Positions 1 through 4,150 of a DNA stretch of 64,000 nt are shown here, one piece after another. This stretch comes from Prochlorococcus sp. AG-679-M10 (lineage in GTDB: Bacteria; Cyanobacteriota; Cyanobacteriia; PCC-6307; Cyanobiaceae). Numbering within the stretch: position 1 is the first letter of the stretch; the number at the start of each line of letters is the position of its first letter. The notes under the pieces were generated by a model. That model was given only the letters and a program-made list of their open reading frames with translations. It was not told the DNA's origin and did not search any database. Location: assembly GCA_003210655.1 (NCBI GenBank), contig QCUQ01000002.1:1-64000 (forward strand), given 5' to 3'. The position numbers and the translations under genes are program-made.

Positions 1-299
1 TACTATGGCTAAAAATCAATCACTTACTGACTTTAACTTTTTCATTAATAACAAATAAAATTGAATATATGGAAAACAAAATATCTGAACTTACATAAAT
101 TAAATACAGGGGGGATTATTTGCACCTCTCAAGTCTTTAAACCATTATCATAAAAGTTATTGTTGATCTTTTGATTCAAATATCACTTATGCGTTTGGAG
201 AATAGATAAATATAGTACTAATAACCACAAAGAAGTTCTAATAGGGTAAAAATACTCTATTAATTTTAAATTTTTTAAAGGAAAATAAAGTACGGGCTT
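1..299. other. Left-edge region, mostly non-coding
   Basis: No substantial gene is visible in this AT-rich stretch. Positions 5-58 hold a short open frame on the plus strand (MAKNQSLTDFNFFINNK, then TAA). The frame stays open to the window edge, so it could be the tail of an upstream gene or a chance ORF. A G-run lies near 109-114. A possible hairpin lies at 240-261 and is listed separately. The rest is probably the 5' region of the small gene that starts at 310. Confidence 0.35.
240..261 (+). other. Hairpin upstream of the CP12-like gene
   Basis: Nine bases (AATAGGGTA) can pair with TACTCTATT across a four-base A loop, with one G-U pair. T-rich sequence follows at 262-277. The shape resembles a weak intrinsic terminator or a 5' leader hairpin. 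It lies about 50 bases before the ATG at 310, so it could end upstream transcription or sit in the leader of that gene. No function is proven. Confidence 0.3.
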
Positions 300-309
300 A
301 GGAGGCTTT

Positions 310-492
310 ATGAAGCTATTCAATCAATTCAATATCCTTCCAAAATACTTAACAGCATTTAACTATGCAGGGTTAAATCTGAATGAAACTCCCAAAGAAC
401 TTGGGCAATGCACTAAAGAGTTTCAAACCTTCTGGGATAGAGAATGTAGAAAAAATCCAACTAATCAGAATTGTTTAATTTATTGTGACTGA
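310..492 (+). CDS. Small CP12-like protein
   Basis: This 60-residue protein is preceded by a strong Shine-Dalgarno sequence (AGGAGG at 300-305, four bases before the ATG), unusual in this AT-rich window and good support for the start. Its C-terminus carries Cys46-RKNPTNQN-Cys55-LIY followed by Cys59 and Asp60. The spacing C-x8-C and the C-x-x-N-P...C-x-(V/I)-Y-x-D pattern match the C-terminal GAPDH-binding loop of CP12, the intrinsically disordered redox linker of GAPDH and phosphoribulokinase in the Calvin cycle. Cys34 is the only cysteine upstream, so the classic N-terminal cysteine pair is absent. The first 30 residues do not resemble standard CP12. It may be a divergent CP12-like regulator or a small protein that kept only this loop. 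The resemblance is seen in the sequence; the role is inferred. Confidence 0.5.
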   Translation: MKLFNQFNILPKYLTAFNYAGLNLNETPKELGQCTKEFQTFWDRECRKNPTNQNCLIYCD

Positions 493-552
493 GTGCTATT
501 TCTTTTTCATATAGGAAGGTTTAATATTCATTAATTTTAAAAGTTAATCTTT

Positions 553-714
553 CTAATAATCATTATCTGAAACACATATCCCTAAACAACGTATCCCATT
601 CGAAGCGGTCCTTTTACAGTGATTACACAGAACCTTATCTTTATCTAAAGAAAATCGCGATTCTTTTTTTGTTTCATCACTTATCAAATTGAGGTTAGGC
701 TCATAAGCTTCCAT
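553..714 (-). CDS. Small protein with four paired cysteines, hypothetical
   Basis: I do not recognise this 53-residue protein. I chose the ATG at 714 (MEAYEPNLN...) because it overlaps the end of the upstream gene by only 14 bases, a usual coupled arrangement; a longer frame begins at 750. Cysteines 30, 33, 43 and 47 form a C-x2-C-x9-C-x3-C pattern, as in a small zinc-binding knuckle. The first half is polar and probably flexible. It follows the 214-residue hypothetical gene and is likely co-transcribed and translationally coupled with it. Metal binding is inference from the cysteine spacing. Confidence 0.55.
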   Translation of the reverse strand: MEAYEPNLNLISDETKKESRFSLDKDKVLCNHCKRTASNGIRCLGICVSDNDY

Positions 715-1345
715 TATTGTTTTTTTTACTTGGATCGATACTAACAACAAAAGAAGGATTAGCGTTAGAAGAGGGTATATCCATAATCTTTACAGACTCT
801 TTGGGTTCGTCAATAACTTCAATTTCCTTAGGGTTCTCATCTACAGCACACGCCTCAAGGGCTTCTCTAAGAAGGGAATCAAAAGTTGCCCCAGGTAACC
901 TATGTCTTGCAACCTCAAGAAAAGTTCTTGGTAATGATTCAGAAGCAGCATCCCTTAACGCAGGATTATTCTTTCTATAATCTTGTTCTTCTTCTATAGA
1001 TTTGATAAATCTCATTGTGACATCTCTTTTAGTAGATGCTTTTATCAAAGTATCATTTTCAGAATTTATAGAATTTGATTCATTCTCAAGGTCACTGAGC
1101 CTTTTCTCAAGACTATTTAAAACCTCATTAGCCTCTTTACTTATATGCGATAGTTGTCCGTCAGATAAATTTGGTAAATCAGCAACAAATACCTTTCCGT
1201 GATCTCTCAAAGTTAAAAAAGTTGGACGGGGACCTTGATTTTGGCGCCCATTAAAATCTGAATTATTACCTATTGGTCTTTTAGGGGGTGTAGGTCCAGC
1301 TGAACTACGTCTACGTGTAATTCTTTGATTATTTTCAAAGGGCAT
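701..1345 (-). CDS. Conserved hypothetical protein with coiled-coil segment
   Basis: This 214-residue soluble protein belongs to no family I can name. Residues 1-40 are rich in Arg, Pro, Asn and Gly and look disordered. Residues about 42-60 (TFLTLRDHGKVFVADLPNL) look like a conserved structured patch. Residues about 62-105 are charged and heptad-like, suggesting a coiled coil. Residues 128-170 form a probable helical domain with an LPRTFLEVARHRLPG core, and the tail is acidic then polar. No signal peptide or membrane segment is seen. It sits downstream of purM on the same strand with a 134-base gap, so it may have its own promoter; an AT-rich TATAATA-like stretch lies near 1405. Confidence 0.7.
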   Translation of the reverse strand: MPFENNQRITRRRSSAGPTPPKRPIGNNSDFNGRQNQGPRPTFLTLRDHGKVFVADLPNLSDGQLSHISKEANEVLNSLEKRLSDLENESNSINSENDTLIKASTKRDVTMRFIKSIEEEQDYRKNNPALRDAASESLPRTFLEVARHRLPGATFDSLLREALEACAVDENPKEIEVIDEPKESVKIMDIPSSNANPSFVVSIDPSKKNNNGSL

Positions 1346-1479
1346 TGTATTAAAGTTAAATCTAATTACTTAAATCTCCGATATAACTCGGTGTTAGTTT
1401 TATTATATTACACCTAACTTTTTCATTTGTGTAGATAAATTTAATTTGTAATTTCTCAATAAAATTTTATTCAAACGAT

Positions 1480-2523
1480 TTAAATTATTATTTCAGGCAA
1501 AAAATTATTCTCTTCTGAATTATCTTTCTTGAGAACCTTCCCTAAGACCCAACTTGATATTTCGCAAGCATCACAAATATTTAAAATCTCATCCTTATAT
1601 TTCTTATCAATTATTAAACAAAACCCAACCCCAAGATTAAAAGTATTCCAAAAATCTTGTTCAGGAATCTGACCGACATCCTTTAAGAATTGAAATAAAG
1701 CAGGAATCTTCCAAGATTTCTTATCTATATAAGGAATAAAATCAGAGGACATACACCTAGGTAAATTCTCAGGAATTCCTCCTCCAGTGATATGCGACAT
1801 TCCCTTTATTTGAATATTCTGAGATAAAATTTGATTTACAATTTTAAAATAAATTTTTGTAGGTTTTAATAATTGATCATAAAAATCTAAGTGGTATTTT
1901 TTTTCAAATTGCTTATCAATTTGATTATTATTTTCAATTATTTTTCTAACTAAACTAAATCCGTTACTATGAATTCCGTTACTTTGTAATGCGATTATCA
2001 AATCATTTTCACATATTTTTTTGCCATTAATTAATTTTTCTTCATCTACGATTCCAACACAAAATCCTGCCAAATCATACTTATTCTTTGAGTAAAATCC
2101 AGGCATCTCGGCAGTTTCTCCTCCAAGTATAGAGCAGTTATTTTCTCGACAACTATGAGCAATGCCTTTAACAACTTCTAATAATTGATTTTTTTCAAGC
2201 TTACCAGTAGCAATATAATCAAGAAAAAATAGCGGTTTTGCCCCAGTTGTAATAATGTCATTCATACACATTGCTACTAAATCAATCCCAACTTCAAAAT
2301 GAAAGTTTTTGATTTGCGCTAATTCCAATTTCGTTCCAACACCATCAGTTCCTGATACTAAGACAGGTTTTTTTAAACCCTCAAGAGGGATTTTAAATAA
2401 ACCACCAAATCCTCCAATCCCTTCCATGACGTTAGTTGAATATGTTGACTCGACAGCCTCCTTTATTTCTGAGACAAATTCTCTTCCAGCTTTTATGTCA
2501 ACTCCCGATGTTTTGTAATCCAT
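1480..2523 (-). CDS. purM: Phosphoribosylformylglycinamidine cyclo-ligase (AIR synthetase)
   Basis: PurM catalyses the ATP-dependent ring closure of formylglycinamidine ribonucleotide to aminoimidazole ribonucleotide, step five of purine synthesis in the cytosol. The 347-residue length is normal. The ATP and substrate signature SGTDGVGTKL lies at residues 57-66. The GGETAEMPG motif, the NGIHSNGFSL motif and the SHITGGGIPENLPR segment are all in the expected order. It is divergent from panC-cmk across about 97 bases that must hold both promoters. No other purine gene is adjacent, which is common in cyanobacteria. No defects are seen. Confidence 0.96.
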   Translation of the reverse strand: MDYKTSGVDIKAGREFVSEIKEAVESTYSTNVMEGIGGFGGLFKIPLEGLKKPVLVSGTDGVGTKLELAQIKNFHFEVGIDLVAMCMNDIITTGAKPLFFLDYIATGKLEKNQLLEVVKGIAHSCRENNCSILGGETAEMPGFYSKNKYDLAGFCVGIVDEEKLINGKKICENDLIIALQSNGIHSNGFSLVRKIIENNNQIDKQFEKKYHLDFYDQLLKPTKIYFKIVNQILSQNIQIKGMSHITGGGIPENLPRCMSSDFIPYIDKKSWKIPALFQFLKDVGQIPEQDFWNTFNLGVGFCLIIDKKYKDEILNICDACEISSWVLGKVLKKDNSEENNFLPEIII

Positions 2524-2620
2524 AAAATAAAAATGATAGACTTCCCTTATATAGATATTCCTCCGTAGATTGCTTTTGTCCAGTAATTATTTATTAAATA
2601 GATTTATTTTTTAAAACAAA

Positions 2621-4150
2621 GTGAGCAAGATAATAAGAAAAACAGAAGAGCTTAAAGAATGGAGACGAAATCTCAAAAGTGATATTAACTTTATCCCAAC
2701 TATGGGTAATCTTCATAATGGTCATCAAAAATTAATATCAACTGCAAAAAGTTCAAATTGCAATACAAACTTATTAAGTATTTTTGTTAATCCACTTCAA
2801 TTTGAAAGCAAAGAAGATCTTAAAAGCTACCCTAAAACTGTTGATAAAGATATTGAAATTGCTTTTTCTAATGGGGCAGATGTAATTTTTATTCCAAATA
2901 TAATTGATATCTATCCCAAAAATAATAAAAGCATAAGTTATTTGAAAGCTTCTAAAGAATTATCTTCAGCTTTATGTGGGCTTACAAGAGTGGGGCATTT
3001 TGATGGGGTTTGCACTGTTGTTTATAGATTACTAAAACTCATACAACCTAAAAATCTTTTTTTAGGAGAAAAAGACTGGCAGCAACTATTAATCATCAAA
3101 AACCTTTTAGAAGAAAAAAAATTCAATATCAATGTTATTTCTGTTCCTACTCAAAGAGATTCTGATGGGGTCCCATTTAGTTCGCGTAATAATCTTTTAT
3201 CCAAAAATGAAAAGGAAATTATCAAATTATTCTCAAATGAACTAAGTCATGCAAAAAAAATTTTTGAAAAGGATAAAAAGATTGACTTAAAACAACTAAC
3301 CAAAAAACTCGAATCAAAAAATATTTCAATTGAATATCTAGAACATTTACATCCCTATAGTTTGAAAAAAGTTCAAACAAAGGATAATATTTCAATTTTA
3401 GCTGGTGCGATAAAATGTGGGAAAACAAGATTAATTGATCACGTTTTTCTTATGAAAAGAAACCCAATTATTGCGATTGATGGGCCAGCAGGTTCAGGGA
3501 AAAGTACCATAACAAAGTTAATTGCCAAGGAGTTAAATCTTTTATATCTAGATACTGGAGCAATGTATAGAGCAATAAGTTGGCTCTTTAAAAAAGAAAA
3601 GATTAATTATGCTAAAGAGTCAGAATTAAAAAAAATTCTTAATGATATTTCTATTATTTTTAAGTCAAATTCTCTTTGTCAGCAAGATGTATTCATAAAT
3701 GATTTTTGTGTAACTGAAGCAATTCGTTCACAAGAAATAAGTTCTATTGTTTCTAAAATTTCATCAATAAAAAAAGTTAGAGAATTTTTGGTTAATGAGC
3801 AAAGAAAAATTGGAAAATCTGGAGGCTTAGTGGCTGAAGGTAGAGATATAGGAACAACAGTTTTTCCAGATGCAGAACTTAAAATATTCCTAACAGCTAG
3901 TATTGATGAAAGAGCTAAAAGAAGAAAGTTAGAATTAGAACTAAGAGGCACTGAAGAAATAGACTTCAATCAATTAAGAGAACTTATAAGTAAAAGAGAT
4001 TTTGAGGATTCAACAAGAGAAATTTCTCCTCTCAAAAAAGCAAAAGATGCAATTGAACTTCTTACCGATGGGTATTCAATTAATCAAATGGTAGAAAAAA
4101 TTATTAACATCTACAATTTAAATATTCCAAAAGAGATTCAACGCGAATAA
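2621..4150 (+). CDS. panC/cmk: Fused pantothenate synthetase / cytidylate kinase
   Basis: This 509-residue bifunctional enzyme has two domains. Residues 1 to about 275 are PanC, which condenses pantoate and beta-alanine with ATP to make pantothenate for coenzyme A. It shows the nucleotide motif PTMGNLHNGH at 26-35, then FVNPLQFE, GHFDGVCTVV and LGEKDWQQ. From Met278 onward it is Cmk, which phosphorylates CMP and dCMP. It shows the P-loop GPAGSGKST at 288-296, the YLDTGAMYRA substrate motif and AEGRDIGTTVFP. The fusion is a known cyanobacterial arrangement. Translation starts at a GTG. The gene is divergent from purM and ends two bases before the convergent phosphatase gene. Confidence 0.95.
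   Translation: MSKIIRKTEELKEWRRNLKSDINFIPTMGNLHNGHQKLISTAKSSNCNTNLLSIFVNPLQFESKEDLKSYPKTVDKDIEIAFSNGADVIFIPNIIDIYPKNNKSISYLKASKELSSALCGLTRVGHFDGVCTVVYRLLKLIQPKNLFLGEKDWQQLLIIKNLLEEKKFNINVISVPTQRDSDGVPFSSRNNLLSKNEKEIIKLFSNELSHAKKIFEKDKKIDLKQLTKKLESKNISIEYLEHLHPYSLKKVQTKDNISILAGAIKCGKTRLIDHVFLMKRNPIIAIDGPAGSGKSTITKLIAKELNLLYLDTGAMYRAISWLFKKEKINYAKESELKKILNDISIIFKSNSLCQQDVFINDFCVTEAIRSQEISSIVSKISSIKKVREFLVNEQRKIGKSGGLVAEGRDIGTTVFPDAELKIFLTASIDERAKRRKLELELRGTEEIDFNQLRELISKRDFEDSTREISPLKKAKDAIELLTDGYSINQMVEKIINIYNLNIPKEIQRE

Follow-up and report, generated by a model that had tools for sequence, protein, structure and literature searches.

What would a protein of only 60 residues do with a C-terminal end that reads like the end of CP12? 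The question is raised at the start of the window, that is, the whole stretch of 64,000 nucleotides analysed here, which forms the initial 64 kb of contig C2 in a genome of 1.0 Mb that is 62% complete. A preliminary description of this DNA had noticed a small protein there with the CP12 signature and its cysteine spacing in the last 15 residues, a single cysteine further upstream, and an ideal Shine-Dalgarno sequence, and all of this stands: the protein ends in CRKNPTNQNCLIYCD (residues 46–60, pattern C-x2-N-P-x4-C-x-I-Y), the one cysteine upstream of the tail is C34, and a GGAGG precedes the gene. What that description lacked is a third tail cysteine, C59, placed between the tyrosine and the last aspartate, the complete order being C46-RK-N-P50-TNQN-C55-L-I-Y58-C59-D60. 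The elements of the locus are as follows:

310–492, + strand: open reading frame of 60 codons with an ATG start, encoding a member of a picocyanobacterial family with a CP12-like tail (ORF list, profile search, alignment)
310–432, + strand: N-terminal part, codons 1–41, conserved among orthologues and with the MKL-x3-F opening common to many family members
433–489, + strand: CP12-like tail, codons 42–60, WDRECRKNPTNQNCLIYCD, with Cys46, Pro50, Cys55, Tyr58, Cys59 and Asp60
301–305, + strand: GGAGG Shine-Dalgarno sequence, 4 nt upstream of the ATG
192–309, + strand: putative leader/promoter block, akin to that of other genes of the family

The gene is adjoined on the opposite strand (window 553–750, −) by a 65-aa ORF with CNHC...CLGIC cysteines, whose zf-BED match is weak and below the cut-off.

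The protein is a member of a conserved, multi-copy family of small proteins present in Prochlorococcus and its relatives. A six-member profile has matches in 182 of the 400 sampled genomes and in 34 of the 59 genera of the taxonomic family, with one to ten per matching genome among the matches listed and five at E ≤ 0.01 in the window's own genome, copy numbers that are the profile's own counts, because not every match was read. In the loci inspected, these proteins are mostly of 50–80 residues and share the tail [YF]W-x2-E-C-x2-[HN]-P-[TS]-x3-C-x-[VIL]-[YF]-x-x, which remains constant as the N-terminal parts vary: one type is that of the window protein (LFNQFNILP...FNYAG), a second reads LxTPFxxIxNAxSDIxxMHDFNYxLP, a third has a long N-terminus, and a fourth occurs in a genus taken for marine Synechococcus. 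The chromosomal positions of the genes differ between loci, two or three copies being clustered at some of them, and high-light-inducible genes, recognised by motif search, lie beside some members and were not seen beside most, in flanks of differing length. None of 14 family members has a Pfam or NCBIfam model above the cut-off, and Pfam, NCBIfam and PHROGs assign no family to the window protein, so that the family unites many scattered small proteins that lie, as far as these 14 members go, outside the coverage of both Pfam and NCBIfam. A Hydro_N_hd match (E 0.067) and similar weak matches were regarded as chance. Two further small ORFs of the same genome, at L113:1792-1932(+) and in L288 (49 aa, contig C8), read RKCLDYSTQENCLVC and YWKLKCEENPSYRGCEI, respectively, and by appearance they are relatives of the tail family that have decayed or diverged.

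Strong purifying selection acts on the gene. Of 107 relatives found, 80 had their orthologue loci fetched (79 named Prochlorococcus, one Synechococcaceae), and each of these loci keeps the frame intact; the set is skewed to conserved copies because it was fetched via short patterns derived from the query. Calculated from 73 distinct DNA sequences, dN/dS is 0.08, with 0.09 for residues 1–41 and 0.06 for residues 42–60. When the residues are counted in 80 rows, formed by the 79 fetched loci of 60 aa and the window, W42, E45, C46, P50, Y58 and C59 are invariant, with Cys55 kept in 79 and Asp60 in 78; that is, both the C-terminal CxxxPxxxxC pair and the tyrosine with an acidic end are maintained, and the two cysteines on whose conservation the preliminary description had staked its case have held. 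A match occurs in 231 of the 266 genomes of the genus, and in 83 of the 87 good ones, with paralogues counted in. Five of the 80 loci have the same purM/panC-cmk neighbourhood as the window, as judged from at most 5 kb on each side and in many cases less.

Is the resemblance to CP12 real? For the tail, the sequence comparisons show that it is, with scores that are modest to weak and a ranking that is specific. The claim of the preliminary description is supported here by HMM, profile-profile, PDB and phylum-wide comparisons, which are only partly independent because sequences are shared between them. A profile of 14 diverse members, run against the 177,635 sequences of the PDB, placed CP12 in all of the best four positions, with three CP12 peptides (3b1j, E 0.011; 6gfo, 0.029; 3zdf, 0.048) and a CBS-CP12 protein (5nmu, 1.2), the alignments being at the C-terminus; the fifth and final match was an acetyl-CoA synthetase (E 1.5). 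The window protein alone reached CP12 at E 0.97, as the second of two matches. Across the phylum, the family profile had a match in 32 of 292 genomes, 23 of them from its own taxonomic family, and the matches in the nine others all proved on reading to be CP12s that have the AWD-x-[VL]EEL core, the remaining CP12s of these genomes falling under the threshold. CP12 was thus the sole outside family with consistent alignments in both searches. A single profile-to-profile comparison between the family and CP12 gave a probability of 67.9 and an E of 4.9e-5 over the last 18 columns, too few to tell common descent from convergence.

The same conclusion is reached with two HMMs, one built on 101 tails and the other on 15 CP12 ends, that were run against the 13,964 ORFs in the fetched loci (the sets for the HMMs and for the residue counts were chosen by patterns devised for this analysis, which miss atypical members), since each ranks the other family next. 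At the top of the CP12 HMM ranking stand a relative without a label, at 8.7e-5, and 24 family ORFs, the best at 6e-4, ahead of a first unrelated ORF at E 1.9, beyond which family and unrelated ORFs are intermixed; five of the 136 family ORFs among the matches listed have E < 0.05. With the other HMM, that of the tail, CP12 first appears at E 0.047, below all 145 ORFs of the family and twelve unlabelled ORFs which, by reading, are family relatives, and of 31 CP12 ORFs 25 lie at E < 1 and one at E < 0.05. The CP12 score of 13.2 bits with this HMM falls to 4.9 or less in 100 column permutations and to 0.3 on reversal. The pattern C...P....C.[IVL][YF].{0,2}$ occurs in three of 13,788 background ORFs, and these three look like family relatives that the labelling pattern left out; shuffled tails predict 0.02; chance is a poor explanation of it. 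Of the 86 distinct tails having two residues after the tyrosine, 85 have an acid at the last or the penultimate position and 55 have a penultimate cysteine, and four of 90 tails end at the tyrosine without an acid. An AlphaFold model of the window protein is weak (mean pLDDT 59.9) and has a helix at 36–46 that ends at Cys46 and is followed by a turn, an arrangement that would agree with a hairpin in a model too weak to carry weight; with this weak model Foldseek returned one PDB match, at E 9.7.

The likeness consists, therefore, of Cys-x3-Pro-x4-Cys, a hydrophobic residue followed by tyrosine, a terminal acid, and the position at the extreme C-terminus. By these tests, however, the window protein is not a CP12, nor does it look like a truncated one. 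The profile search that the preliminary description had proposed was negative, Pfam CP12 (PF02672) having no match to the protein at E ≤ 10 and weakly matching two of the 14 family members (best E 0.075); the CP12 matches listed in 101 genomes were all above the cut-off, and most spanned positions 1–70 of 70. The idea of a CP12 with the rest missing is unsupported for the additional reason that the N-terminal 41 residues are themselves conserved (dN/dS 0.09). Unlike CP12, the protein has no CP12 body, its N-terminal part is different, and it belongs to a multi-copy family. The tail itself also departs: the glutamate before the second cysteine is found in 31 of 31 CP12 ORFs versus none of 90 distinct tails (asparagine in the window protein, histidine or asparagine in 62 of the 90), the Asp/Glu that follows the first cysteine in all 31 is here an arginine, Cys59 is an addition, and the family has its own W-x2-E before the first cysteine, with the glutamate in 79 of the 90 tails. 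On reading, the protein also lacks the AWD_VEE core and the N-terminal cysteine pair, a test that is indecisive in this lineage because both are also missing from the genome's own CP12.

That CP12, for which the preliminary description had suggested a search, is a protein of 72 aa on contig C4, and of 101 genomes sampled from the taxonomic family 97 have a CP12. In the incomplete genome no Gap2 was found, and the Gp_dh_C profile gives one match. This match is a GAPDH-like protein of 351 aa (L292 72–1127, contig C25) which, by reading, looks like a paralogue divergent from the Gap2 of the Calvin cycle; downstream of its gene lies what reads as a 2-hydroxyacid dehydrogenase.

There are precedents for a tail of this type acting on its own. 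Excerpts of two papers (PMC4436894; PMC3728087) report that oxidised CP12-like tails enter the cleft of GAPDH, where the last or last-but-one acid contacts Arg77/Arg82, which otherwise serve NADPH, and that in GapB the CP12-like tail alone inhibits GAPDH through its terminal glutamate and Arg77. CP12-like tails are also reported for ADK3 (PMC9406205) and for argininosuccinate lyase (PMC9406205; PMC4436894). The situation in the window is comparable, in that a protein which is otherwise unrelated ends, at its extreme C-terminus, in a hairpin sequence of the CP12 type, for which the scores are modest and the ranking is specific; in contrast to GapB and the other carriers, the family consists of small proteins, mostly of 50–80 residues, in which no enzyme domain was recognised, and GapB is absent from the matches of the family profile in the 177,635 sequences of the PDB. 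Another likeness, of description rather than of sequence, is that to the IF17-like inhibitors of cyanobacteria, which are likewise very small and bind and control a central metabolic enzyme, although IF17 acts in a different pathway.

The reading that we prefer, with a probability of about 0.4, is that the tail would be a redox-closed hairpin docking on GAPDH or on a similar cleft without phosphoribulokinase, a degree of commitment that is set by the retention of the cysteine pair, the proline, the tyrosine and the terminal aspartate together with the loss of the inner loop acids. The window protein would then be a small redox-responsive regulator: under oxidising conditions, such as darkness or stress, a Cys46–Cys55 disulfide would form and the tail would fold; by its last residue, Asp60, and perhaps by Tyr58, the folded tail would dock into a nucleotide-binding cleft, the likeliest being the one in the Calvin-cycle GAPDH (Gap2), whose NADPH-dependent activity would be lowered; and thioredoxin would reopen the tail in the light. 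Phosphoribulokinase would not be recruited, the CP12 body being absent, and the variable N-terminal part could direct each paralogue to a separate partner or place. A regulator of GAPDH only, as the preliminary description had already proposed, would be our best guess from the residues retained, despite the missing CP12 glutamate before the second cysteine.

Almost as likely is that the CP12-like disulfide hairpin, whether obtained by descent or by convergence, would serve some other enzyme, or a partner in a membrane or complex, with paralogues that have diversified. The absence of the CP12 inner loop acids from the tails would favor this, as would the conserved W-x2-E that the family has for itself and the several paralogues per genome with differing N-terminal parts; what would speak for GAPDH is the retained terminal acid, reported as a GAPDH contact in CP12 and GapB.

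A third possibility, which we consider improbable, is that of a small metal-binding protein, with C46, H/N49, H/N54, C55 and C59 in the high-light type looking like a thiol/imidazole site. Many high-light tails do read C-x2-H-P-[TS]-x2-H-C-x3-C, but many other members are without the third cysteine and the second histidine (STCKVYDD, PGCKIYDD), and the window protein has asparagine at both histidine positions.

Even less probable would be that the protein is a decoy or titrator of true CP12, which the preliminary description had raised by analogy with phage versions. Cyanophages that infect the same hosts do have CP12 proteins (e.g. P-HM2, P-TIM68) whose tail is of the CP12 type, as in the family, and the myovirus P-TIM68 carries a family member of 51 aa directly after hsp20. 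The same phage, however, separately encodes a CP12 of 75 aa, the 360 phage records retrieved with the CP12 of this genome, 60 of them listed, match over at least 80% of it, and the members of the family are found mainly on chromosomes and in multiple copies. A stripped-down decoy is thus little supported by the phage evidence, with the exception of P-SSM2, which has a protein of 88 aa (L291:1312-1578, annotated as hypothetical) that matches CP12 over the last 24 profile positions only; it reads CDNHPDADECKVYDD, with His-Pro as in the tail family and a different N-terminal part, and it stands between CP12 and the tail family. Proteins with a CP12 tail do exist, therefore, in phages. When viral contigs were scanned with the window protein, no relative came up. 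In Prochlorococcus myoviruses, a small MKLT[TS]PFS peptide follows hsp20 (L114:3473-4069; L225 and L227, from ~1500), with a CP12-like tail in P-TIM68 and without it in P-SSM2, where the peptide is the N-terminal module alone, and in the marine virus AG-345-F15.

Last, that the ORF is spurious or the remnant of a decaying CP12, as the internal stops in some copies of relatives might suggest, is highly improbable in view of the intact frame and purifying selection reported above, the conserved leader and Shine-Dalgarno sequence, and an N-terminal part that is conserved in its own right.

If the tail is indeed a docking hairpin, as in the preferred reading, the family could add a layer of redox control to the central metabolism of a very abundant phototroph. 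The genome of Prochlorococcus is known for its few regulators. A broader extension, which we regard as doubtful, is that Prochlorococcus and marine Synechococcus would possess a battery of micro-regulators, several tiny proteins to a genome, each joining a CP12-type redox hairpin to a different N-terminal part; GAPDH, or several nucleotide-dependent enzymes, could then be switched separately under different conditions, and the CP12 docking tail would be a reusable module in a streamlined phototroph, one copy of which was acquired by a phage. The day/night switching of carbon flow in Prochlorococcus is discussed in terms of CP12 and OpcA (PMC2663038). The tail as a module is already known from GapB and ADK3, and a multi-copy family of small proteins based on it would appear to be new, insofar as the excerpts of open-licence literature returned no description of such a family in picocyanobacteria.

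The family resemblance is not confined to the coding sequence. Paralogues whose coding sequences differ have a recognisable leader block in common, which occupies some 105 bp upstream of the ATG and closes with GGAGG. Of 60 non-redundant leaders, 11 were removed (shared leader absent, or unlike genes), leaving 49, of which 29 were aligned, three high-light ones being excluded and 17 others remaining unaligned; GGAGG is kept in 26 of the 29. The consensus leader matches in 35 of 41 genomes; in the genome of the window, where the leader has diverged further, it has no match at E ≤ 0.001. A structured RNA was considered and set aside on the RNAalifold result, which consists of four pairs at −1.15 kcal/mol with double changes in none, and the leader fits no curated RNA, as Rfam gave no match at E ≤ 1 in positions 1–3000 of the window. 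Because the fold is unconvincing, the block would be better read as a conserved promoter and 5′ end than as a riboswitch.

Other RNA elements lie near some members. Among 20 chosen loci, Glutamine-II aptamers occur within ~0.4 kb of three family members (L145:1878-1940(-), L155:1378-1440(-), L165:1100-1157(+)); none was found before the window gene. Genes of the small RNAs Yfr10 and Cyano-1 lie ~0.3–0.5 kb upstream of members having the conserved leader (L041:1323-1559(+), L012:2139-2376(-)).
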